64,000 nucleotides of DNA, from assembly GCA_022823305.1 (NCBI GenBank), contig JAJDXK010000101.1:62001-126000 (forward strand). The letters run 5' to 3'. Source of the stretch: Alphaproteobacteria bacterium (GTDB lineage: Bacteria; Pseudomonadota; Alphaproteobacteria; UBA828). Position 1 is the stretch's first letter; every line of letters starts with the position of its first letter. The notes beneath the pieces are model-generated. The model did no database searches and was not told the DNA's origin. It worked only from the letters and a program-made list of their open reading frames with translations. Shown here piece after piece: positions 33,100 to 42,456 of this stretch. The position numbers and the translations under genes are program-made.

Positions 33100-33504
33100 A
33101 TGATCGGACGCCTGAACCACGTCGCCATCGCCGTGCCCGACCTCGCGGCGGCGAGCGAGCTCTACCGCGGCACGCTGGGGGCCAGCGTCTCCGAGCCGCT
33201 CGACCTGCCGGAGCACGGGGTCACCACGGTCTTCGTCACGTTGCCCAATACCAAGCTGGAGCTGCTCCACCCGCTCGGCGAGGCATCGCCCATCGCCGGC
33301 TTCCTCGTCAGGAACCCGGCGGGCGGCATCCATCACCTCTGCTACGAGGTGGGCGACATCCGCGCCGCGCGCGACCGGCTGGTGGCGGAGGGTGCCCGCG
33401 TGCTGGGGGACGGCGAGCCCCGCACCGGCGCCCACGGCAAGCCGGTGATCTTCCTCCATCCCAAGGATTTCCTGGGCACGCTGATCGAGCTGGAGCAGGT
33501 CTGA
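33100..33504 (+). CDS. mce: Methylmalonyl-CoA epimerase
   Basis: VOC-fold epimerase of 134 residues interconverting (2R)- and (2S)-methylmalonyl-CoA in propionate metabolism. LNHVAIAVPDLAAASELYR near the N-terminus, GGIHHLCYEVGDI and the C-terminal GTLIELEQV supply metal ligands in this family. GGAAGGGGCC precedes the ATG. Mutase genes are not in the window. Confidence 0.93.
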   Translation: MIGRLNHVAIAVPDLAAASELYRGTLGASVSEPLDLPEHGVTTVFVTLPNTKLELLHPLGEASPIAGFLVRNPAGGIHHLCYEVGDIRAARDRLVAEGARVLGDGEPRTGAHGKPVIFLHPKDFLGTLIELEQV

Positions 33505-35894: not shown

Positions 35895-37814
35895 TCACTC
35901 CGACGCCGTCTCTTCGCCCATCTCCGGGCGGTAGGTGCCGAAGTGCCAGAGGTGGCCCTCGGGGTCGCGGGCGGAGTAGTCGCGCGAGCCGTAGGGGGTA
36001 TCCTCCAGCTCGCGCACGATCTCGGCGCCGTTCAGCAGGGCACGGGCATAGTGGGCGTCGGCGTCGTCCACGACGACGTAGATCGACTGGGTGACGCCGC
36101 CGAGGTCGCACGGGCTGCCGAGCGCGAGCGCGTCGTCGCGCTTCGAGCCCAGCATGACCATGCCGGAGCCGAATGAGAGCTGGGCGTGGGCGATGGTGTC
36201 GTCCGGCCCGGGCACGACCATGGTCTCGGTGAAGCCGAAGGCCTCCCCGAGCCACGCGATCGCGGCGGGCGCGTCCTCGTAGCTGAGGCAGGGCACGATG
36301 CTGGGGGCGGTCCCGGTCATGGCGGCGTACTCCTCGCGTTGCTGCAGGGGGTGGTCGGCAGGGGCGACGGCGGCGAGCTCGAACGCTTCCTCCTCGGGCG
36401 GCGCCTCGTCCGCCTCCGGCTCTTCGGCGGGCGTCTCGTCCTCCGCCTCGTCATCCGCTTCGGCCAGGAGCGTCGCCGGCGTGGCCACGAGCGCGGCGAC
36501 CTCGGCGCAGTTCGGCGCGTGGCGGCCGGGGGGCCCGAGGGCGAGAAAGGTCTCGCGCGGGAGACCGAGGGTCTGGTTGACATCGGGCACGACGTGGACC
36601 GTGCGTTGCTCGAGCCTGTCGTGGTCTCCCTCGACGACCTCGACGATGTAGGTGCCGGTGACGGCGTGGCGGTTGGCGTCGAGCGAGACCGGGCCGCCGA
36701 AGGGGGTCTCGAAGCGAAGCCCGGCAAGGGCAGCGCGCAGCTTCGCGTGCCCCTCGGCCGGCGCCGCGCCGATTTCCTCCAGGGCGAGGAAGAGGGCCTT
36801 GGCGTTCACGTAGTAGGCGAGCGCGAACAGGCTCGGCGTCGGGCCGGCGTCGGGATAGCGCTCGCGGTAGCGCTCGGTGAACGAGGCCCAGGCCTCGTTG
36901 TCCTCGCTGGCGGAGACGGGGAGCGCGGAGATCGCTCCCTCCACGAGGGGGCGGAGGGTATCGCCCGCCGCGAGGAGGCGACCGCTCAGCGTCGTGGAAC
37001 TGGTCACGATGGCGGCATCTCCGCCGGCCTCGCCGTAGGCTCTGAGAAAGCCCTCCGCCATGCGGGGGGAGAGCGCGAGGAAGAGCGCGTCCGCCTCGGC
37101 CCGGGCCACGCTCCCGGCGATGCGGGTCGGGTCGCGCGCGCCGGGGGAGACCCAGTGCCTTTCCAGCTCCCGCCCGCCGAGGGCGCAGTAGTCCAGCACG
37201 AAGCCCATGAGCTGCGTGTGGGGCAGGGAGTAGTCCTCGGCCACCGTGACGATGGAGCGGAGTCCCTTCTCCTCGTAGGCGTAGCGCCCCAGGCCCGCGA
37301 TCCACTGCATGCTGTCGGGATTGAAGCGGAAGAAGTTCTCCGCCGGCGCGTGCAGGGTGGTCTCCTGCGTGGCCGAGGCGCCGTTGATGAAGGTCGCCTC
37401 CGGCACGCTCCTGGCGAAGTCGCGGAGCGCGATGCTCTCGATCCCGGAAAGGGGGCCGATGACGATGAGCGCGCCCTGCTCGAGCAGCGTCAGCGCCTTG
37501 GCGGTCGCCGACTCGGGCGTCCCCTTCGTGGATTCGACGAGCGCTTCGAGGCCGAGCGCCTCGATGCGCTCCGCGTGCTCCTCGGCCGCCAGCTCGTAGC
37601 CGCGCAGGGCGTCCTGCCCCAGCGGTGCGAACGCGCCTTCGAGGGGGGCGAGCACGCCGACCTTGAGGCCGTCGGAGTGCGCCGCGGCCGGCCCCGCGCT
37701 CAGCGACAGCGCGGCGACGAGGATCGCCCAGGCCAGAAGGACGATGACGTGCGGCGCGAAAGCCCGAGCGCGCTCATGGCGACCGCCTTCCCGGACTGGC
37801 GGCGCTTTCGTCAC
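35895..37814 (-). CDS. Periplasmic binding protein fused to a VOC (glyoxalase-like) domain
   Basis: A continuous frame of 639 residues from GTG 37814. Residues about 22-45 are a signal peptide ending AAA; about 50-430 form a type I periplasmic binding protein (KVGVLAPLEGAFAPLGQDAL, then GPLSGIESIALRDFA, then FFRFNP). A very acidic Pro/Glu linker (about 445-488) leads to a VOC domain (about 500-620: AIAWLGEAFGF, then YSARDPEGHLWHFGTYRP). An ATG at 36320 in the linker end has GAGGAG 9 nt upstream, so the VOC part may also be made alone (141 residues, without signal peptide). A TTG at 37844 is an alternative start. No transporter genes adjoin. The fusion is unusual; ligand unknown. Confidence 0.82.
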   Translation of the reverse strand: MTKAPPVREGGRHERARAFAPHVIVLLAWAILVAALSLSAGPAAAHSDGLKVGVLAPLEGAFAPLGQDALRGYELAAEEHAERIEALGLEALVESTKGTPESATAKALTLLEQGALIVIGPLSGIESIALRDFARSVPEATFINGASATQETTLHAPAENFFRFNPDSMQWIAGLGRYAYEEKGLRSIVTVAEDYSLPHTQLMGFVLDYCALGGRELERHWVSPGARDPTRIAGSVARAEADALFLALSPRMAEGFLRAYGEAGGDAAIVTSSTTLSGRLLAAGDTLRPLVEGAISALPVSASEDNEAWASFTERYRERYPDAGPTPSLFALAYYVNAKALFLALEEIGAAPAEGHAKLRAALAGLRFETPFGGPVSLDANRHAVTGTYIVEVVEGDHDRLEQRTVHVVPDVNQTLGLPRETFLALGPPGRHAPNCAEVAALVATPATLLAEADDEAEDETPAEEPEADEAPPEEEAFELAAVAPADHPLQQREEYAAMTGTAPSIVPCLSYEDAPAAIAWLGEAFGFTETMVVPGPDDTIAHAQLSFGSGMVMLGSKRDDALALGSPCDLGGVTQSIYVVVDDADAHYARALLNGAEIVRELEDTPYGSRDYSARDPEGHLWHFGTYRPEMGEETASE

Positions 37815-38052
37815 GCCCTGCGGATCATGCTGAAATTCACGCAAATCGAGGCATGGAGCCTTCTGCCGCGCGCCCGCCTCCCGCGCGGTACTGTGGTTGA
37901 ACCTCTCGCCGCCCGCACCTTAGCCCGCATTTCTCACCAAGGTCACGGACCATGACAGCGGTGAGAATTCCGCGCTAGGCTAGGGGCAGCAGGCGGACGG
38001 CGCACGGCGCATGACGCCGTGGCCGGGACGCCGCCGATGGGAGGAGGCAAAC

Positions 38053-41930: not shown

Positions 41931-42188
41931 ATGAGCACCGTCGTCCGCGCTCGCATAGACGAAAAGACCAAGGACGAGGCCGTTGCCGTGTTGGACGCGA
42001 TCGGCCTCACGGTGTCCGACGCCTTTCGCCTGATGATGGTGCGGATCGCCACCGAGAAGCGACTGCCTTTCGAGCCCCTTGTGCCCAACGACGAGACGAT
42101 CGAGGCCATGAAGGCTGCCCGGCGCGGCGACTTGAGCGCCGTCGGCGGCGTGGATGAACTGATGGCCGATCTGAATGCGGACGATTAG
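41931..42188 (+). CDS. RelB/DinJ-family antitoxin
   Basis: Antitoxin of 85 residues. The N-terminal ribbon-helix-helix part STVVRARIDEKTKDEAVAVL then LTVSDAFRLMM is characteristic of RelB/DinJ; the C-terminal half should wrap the toxin. It overlaps the toxin gene by 14 bp. Such antitoxins usually autorepress with their toxin; the 195-bp upstream region is where an operator would lie. Confidence 0.88.
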   Translation: MSTVVRARIDEKTKDEAVAVLDAIGLTVSDAFRLMMVRIATEKRLPFEPLVPNDETIEAMKAARRGDLSAVGGVDELMADLNADD

Positions 42189-42456
42189 ACGAACCGCAGC
42201 CTTCAAACGAGACTACAGACGCGAGAAGAAAGGCCGTTTCGCCAGGACCCTGGACCTGGAGGTCAGGAACATCGTAGCCGCTTTGGCGGCCGATCGGCCC
42301 CTGCCGAAACGCCATCACGATCACGCGTTGGCCGGGCCGTGGAAAGATCATCGCGACTGCCACGTTCGGCCCGATTTGGTCTTGATCTATCGCAAGCCGG
42401 ATACCGACCATCTCGACCTCGTACGCTTGGGTTCCCACAGCGAACTCGGCCTTTGA
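42175..42456 (+). CDS. YafQ/RelE-family mRNA-interferase toxin
   Basis: RelE-fold toxin of 93 residues that would cleave mRNA on the ribosome. Residues aligned by eye with the YafQ active site are present: H50, H63 (DCHVRPDLVLIY), D67, R84 and H88 (RLGSHSEL). It starts within the antitoxin gene, implying coupled translation. The pair looks intact. Confidence 0.88.
   Translation: MRTIRRTAAFKRDYRREKKGRFARTLDLEVRNIVAALAADRPLPKRHHDHALAGPWKDHRDCHVRPDLVLIYRKPDTDHLDLVRLGSHSELGL

Follow-up and report, generated by a model that had tools for sequence, protein, structure and literature searches.

Synthesis of a long and a short protein from a single reading frame is well established in bacteria. In-frame dual starts are known in CheA, CcmM, infB, clpB and SsaQ, and in Salmonella OmpX/PagC, whose long and short forms differ by the signal peptide (PMC11005335). 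In two-polypeptide endolysins (PMC9430671) and in RpnL/RpnS (PMC10327210), the C-terminal domain is also made alone from an internal in-frame start, and the short form acts on the long form or can assemble with it. The gene described here lies in a window of 64,000 nucleotides, the whole stretch of DNA that was analysed, and joins a periplasmic binding protein to a VOC domain. Like CheA and the other genes of the first group (PMC11005335), it appears to combine one open reading frame with two in-frame starts and a C-terminal short form. It differs from them in that the short form corresponds to a whole, once-independent gene that has been fused to one for a secreted binding protein, and in that its two products are predictions from sequence. 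With the endolysins and RpnL/RpnS it shares a C-terminal domain predicted to be made alone as well, whereas the two forms predicted here would reside in different compartments.

The constituent domains are also familiar from other contexts. The VOC proteins TioX, TnmS1 and ZbmA stand alone, whereas the VOC domain of this gene is fused to a binding protein predicted to be exported; its likeness to TioX, the best match in both sequence and fold, is a matter of similarity only. The binding-protein moiety resembles LIV-type substrate-binding proteins, with a Pfam likeness far above the cut-off, but differs from them in its attached VOC domain and in the absence of an adjacent LIV permease or ATPase gene. 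The combination of binding protein and VOC domain was found neither in the literature searched for this architecture nor outside the genus concerned. The favoured interpretation, which is judged quite likely, is that of a lineage-specific fusion with two starts, yielding an exported long form and a cytosolic VOC protein, with ligand being captured both outside and inside the inner membrane.

Domains, linker and junctions of the fusion gene

The first-pass annotation had described one frame uniting a signal peptide, a binding protein, a linker and a VOC domain, and this description holds. The frame is free of stops on the minus strand from the GTG at 37814 to the stop codon at 35895-35897, and Pfam recognizes both Peripla_BP_6 (E 1.2e-44, 153.9 bits for a cut-off of 31.7) and Glyoxalase/VOC PF00903 (E 5.7e-13, above its cut-off). 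Its parts are listed in Table 1. The nearest solved relatives of the binding protein are generic LIV-type receptors. In all seven species that carry the fusion, the N-terminus displays a basic n-region, a hydrophobic core and a cleavage region of small residues, and it is on these sequence features that the long form is predicted to be exported. The AlphaFold2 model of the full-length protein (mean pLDDT 53.5) is too weak to define the relative placement of the domains.

Table 1. Features of the fusion gene, in coordinates of the window
Feature	Position	Strand	Basis
Whole fusion ORF, GTG to stop, 639 aa, ~67.7 kDa	35895..37814	-	Orthologous ORF in 6 further species
Signal peptide, residues 1-45, ..SAGPAAA/HS cleavage (predicted)	37680..37814	-	Sequence features in 7/7 species
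LIV-type (Peripla_BP_6) binding protein, residues 46-436, C-terminal Cys last	36507..37679	-	Pfam and unfused orthologues
Acidic Pro/Ala-rich linker, residues 437-498	36321..36506	-	Open in 7/7 species
Shine-Dalgarno GAGGAG of the internal start	36330..36335	-	Six other species carry AAGGA, spaced 7 nt
Internal ATG, native start of the VOC gene	36318..36320	-	Invariant, 7/7 species
VOC domain = predicted cytosolic product, 141 aa, 15.0 kDa	35898..36320	-	Pfam, structure matches, AlphaFold2 model
Cys569 codon	36108..36110	-	Invariant in fusions, 0/30 stand-alone homologues
Cys509 codon, possible disulfide partner of Cys569	36288-36290	-	Invariant

For the VOC domain, the nearest solved structure is TioX (PDB 3itw; 1.7e-19 by sequence, 6e-12 by fold), for which sequestration of thiocoraline has been proposed (PMC6804068), and further matches include the antibiotic-binding proteins TnmS1 and ZbmA. 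VOC structures are also the top matches of its AlphaFold2 model (pLDDT 83). In sequence and modelled fold, this part of the fusion is thus closest to drug-binding VOC proteins such as TioX. The domain had initially been called enzyme-like; the assignment to VOC stands, while the label should cover binding or sequestration no less than catalysis. Cys569, which all seven fusions share and none of 30 stand-alone homologues has, sits in a low-confidence loop of the model. It may form a disulfide with Cys509, a bond that would fit export, and its presence is consistent with a VOC domain located in the oxidising periplasm.

The linker of the window gene contains 62 residues, with 20 Asp/Glu and a single Lys/Arg; its densest stretch of 25 residues does hold the 15 Asp/Glu counted at first reading. 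Across the seven species it is always open and measures 55-63 aa, with 14-21 Asp/Glu and 1-5 Lys/Arg; of the equally long stop-free segments in the DNA analysed, only ~1.7% reach such acidity. Identity among the seven species is 75% in the binding protein and 82% in the VOC domain, against 62-64% at four-fold sites, and the mean pairwise identity of the linkers is 31%. Judged by this pattern, the linker is used, its frame, length and acidity being kept at 31% identity.

The junctions point to the origin of the gene. Unfused orthologues of the binding protein, including those of the sister genus g6, terminate in ..LALGAPGPNTPSCP or a similar tail, and in alignments this Cys falls on the residue of the fusions that immediately precedes the linker. 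Stand-alone VOC homologues are ~130-145 aa long, and their N-termini lie no more than a few residues from the internal Met. Since the binding-protein orthologues stop at the junction Cys and the VOC proteins start near the internal Met, two complete genes have been joined and, as read from these alignments, the fusion consists of a native end, a linker and a native start. The suggestion that the gene arose from two genes is thereby upheld. It had been put forward, as the loss of a stop codon, as an alternative to the synthesis of two products; gene joining is now supported and two products are likely as well, the short protein being predicted from its conserved internal start, so that the two proposals are not alternatives.

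The probable internal start site

Initiation within the fusion is suggested by several features of the mRNA. The ATG at 36320 with GAGGAG 9 nt upstream, noted at first reading, is present as described, and the ATG is accompanied by a Shine-Dalgarno core 5-15 nt upstream in 7/7 species. The fusion genes contain 51 further in-frame ATGs, and no such core precedes any of them. Among 345 internal ATGs in the remaining long ORFs of the window, 35 are preceded by a core, and 3 combine a core with comparably weak structure. In each species, 90-99% of the gene's segments are more structured than the 60-nt mRNA segment around the internal ATG, and the minimum of the averaged structure is centred on this ATG. 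Upon synonymous resampling, the weak structure exceeds what the amino acid sequence would lead one to expect (mean z +1.47, the top of 104 positions), and the next separate peak lies near the GTG start. The seven species are related and represent about four deep lineages, so that these counts do not stand for seven independent events.

A Shine-Dalgarno motif taken alone was rejected as proof, as cores occur at 27% of codons in the Glu-rich linkers. Synonymous resampling revealed no excess of Shine-Dalgarno strength or codon choice beyond what the residues require, and conservation of the K-D-x-A-M motif could partly reflect constraint on the protein. Given the frequency of cores in the linkers and this absence of excess, the case for the internal start rests on the combination of a conserved internal start codon, a ribosome-binding site and accessible mRNA, all of which are found here. 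On this combination, the internal start is apparently kept by selection, which makes two products likely. The N-terminus of the predicted short form would be (M)TGTAPSIVPCLSYEDAPAAIAWLGEAFGF.

An unlikely alternative is that only the exported full-length fusion is made. The internal ATG and its Shine-Dalgarno sequence would then be left over from the VOC gene, or be retained for the residues they encode. The signal does mark the start of the old VOC gene, there is some protein-level conservation of K-D/E-x-A-M, and both the abundance of cores in the linkers and the result of resampling accord with this explanation. A neutral relic should nevertheless have decayed, given that four-fold sites agree at only ~62% and linkers at 31%. 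Furthermore, the window species has GAGGAG in place of the AAGGA of the other six, with a change of residues from K-D to E-Y, and yet a Shine-Dalgarno sequence remains. Synonymous codons at the ATG also favour weak structure more than elsewhere sampled in the gene. It is very improbable, conversely, that the internal VOC protein is the sole product that matters and the joining a tolerated accident. This would account for a Shine-Dalgarno sequence at the internal start and none at the GTG, which has no core in 7/7 species, but the binding protein is under purifying selection (75% amino acid against 62% four-fold identity), frame and acidity are kept in all seven linkers, and an extra Cys has been fixed in the fusion lineage.

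Immediately upstream of the GTG (37812-37829, minus strand), an out-of-frame ATG kept in 7/7 species begins an ORF of five codons, and the TGA of this ORF overlaps the GTG. The sequence reads ..GCGTGACG or similar; the ATG usually lies in a CATGAT-like hexamer and has no Shine-Dalgarno sequence. The site might serve as a -10 element, the message then being nearly leaderless, or as a coupled leader.

Predicted products and their significance

With two starts in use, the gene probably directs the synthesis of a ~67 kDa exported binder-VOC protein and a ~15 kDa cytosolic VOC protein. Translation from the GTG at 37814 would produce a pre-protein, to be exported by Sec and trimmed by signal peptidase, leaving a LIV-type binding protein connected by a flexible acidic linker to the VOC domain. 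Translation from the ATG at 36320, with its own Shine-Dalgarno sequence and unstructured mRNA, would give the VOC protein alone, which is without a signal peptide and would remain in the cytosol. The likeliest role would be the capture of ligand outside as well as inside the inner membrane: the long form would bring together the binding protein and a binder akin to TioX, and the cytosolic VOC protein would handle the ligand that enters. The sequences establish the fusion, its origin and its conservation, together with a conserved internal initiation region. Export is inferred from the signal peptide; synthesis of the short form and the roles of the proteins are deductions as well. It is more probable than not that selection has kept both the joined frame and the second start in a fusion fixed in this genus, placing the VOC module on the two faces of the inner membrane, tethered to the binding protein outside and free inside.

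The locus would thus exemplify a fusion that has occurred apparently without loss of the independent product of the second gene, with junctions that are native ends and an old start that looks selected. This suggests a route by which fusions may be fixed without a trade-off, and a way for one gene to place a module in two compartments. In practical terms, a conserved ATG with a Shine-Dalgarno sequence and a dip in structure at synonymous sites, all at a domain boundary, forms a signature that could find similar genes, which standard annotation gives as one protein.

Distribution and gene neighbourhoods

In the genomes compared, the fusion is specific to one genus of uncultured alphaproteobacteria. 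It is uninterrupted and in the same gene order in 7/8 genomes of the genus, with copies 65-66% identical to that of the window across their full length. It keeps the same flanking genes, a cupin and an SDR gene on one side and, opposite, the gene for a polyamine-type ABC binding protein. In the eighth genome (G003, 67% complete) the fusion locus was not found, the sole match being PotD, 50% identical. Outside the genus, either domain occurs alone among the matches listed in 191 relatives and 385 genomes of the class, and a scan of genome contigs with short patterns, which mainly detects close relatives, gave no fusion. The search for the two-domain architecture in other genomes, proposed in the first-pass annotation, has therefore yielded six further species with an open fusion, and the two findings that would have spoken against the gene, a stop or frameshift hidden in the linker and the lack of a two-domain homologue, are contradicted by them. 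An assembly or sequencing error that erased a stop or a frameshift separating two genes can practically be dismissed: the carriers are draft genomes only, mostly labelled metagenome-assembled, but seven independent errors would be needed to open the frame in separate assemblies of seven species whose linkers differ in length and sequence.

The binding-protein gene is an orphan in the fusion genus and in g6, no LIV permease or ATPase gene being found next to it in the window or in the g6 locus (L067). In g6 it lies between hydantoinase A/B and aldehyde:ferredoxin oxidoreductase genes (L067:3037-10289), neighbours that may hint at the class of ligand bound. Several other alphaproteobacteria carry the gene for the unfused binding protein inside a LIV-type ABC operon (L069). 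In the operon of one complete genome of another family, a LivF-type ATPase and a UPF0261 protein share one ORF (L069:9606-11984, plus strand), possibly a second fusion.

Two other features of the window deserve mention. A second VOC protein, similar to methylmalonyl-CoA epimerase (Glyoxalase_4; 33100-33504, plus strand), is separate from the fusion. A RelB-like antitoxin (PF04221) and a YafQ-like toxin (PF15738) are encoded as a pair at 41931-42456 on the plus strand, immediately following the polyamine-type ABC genes.
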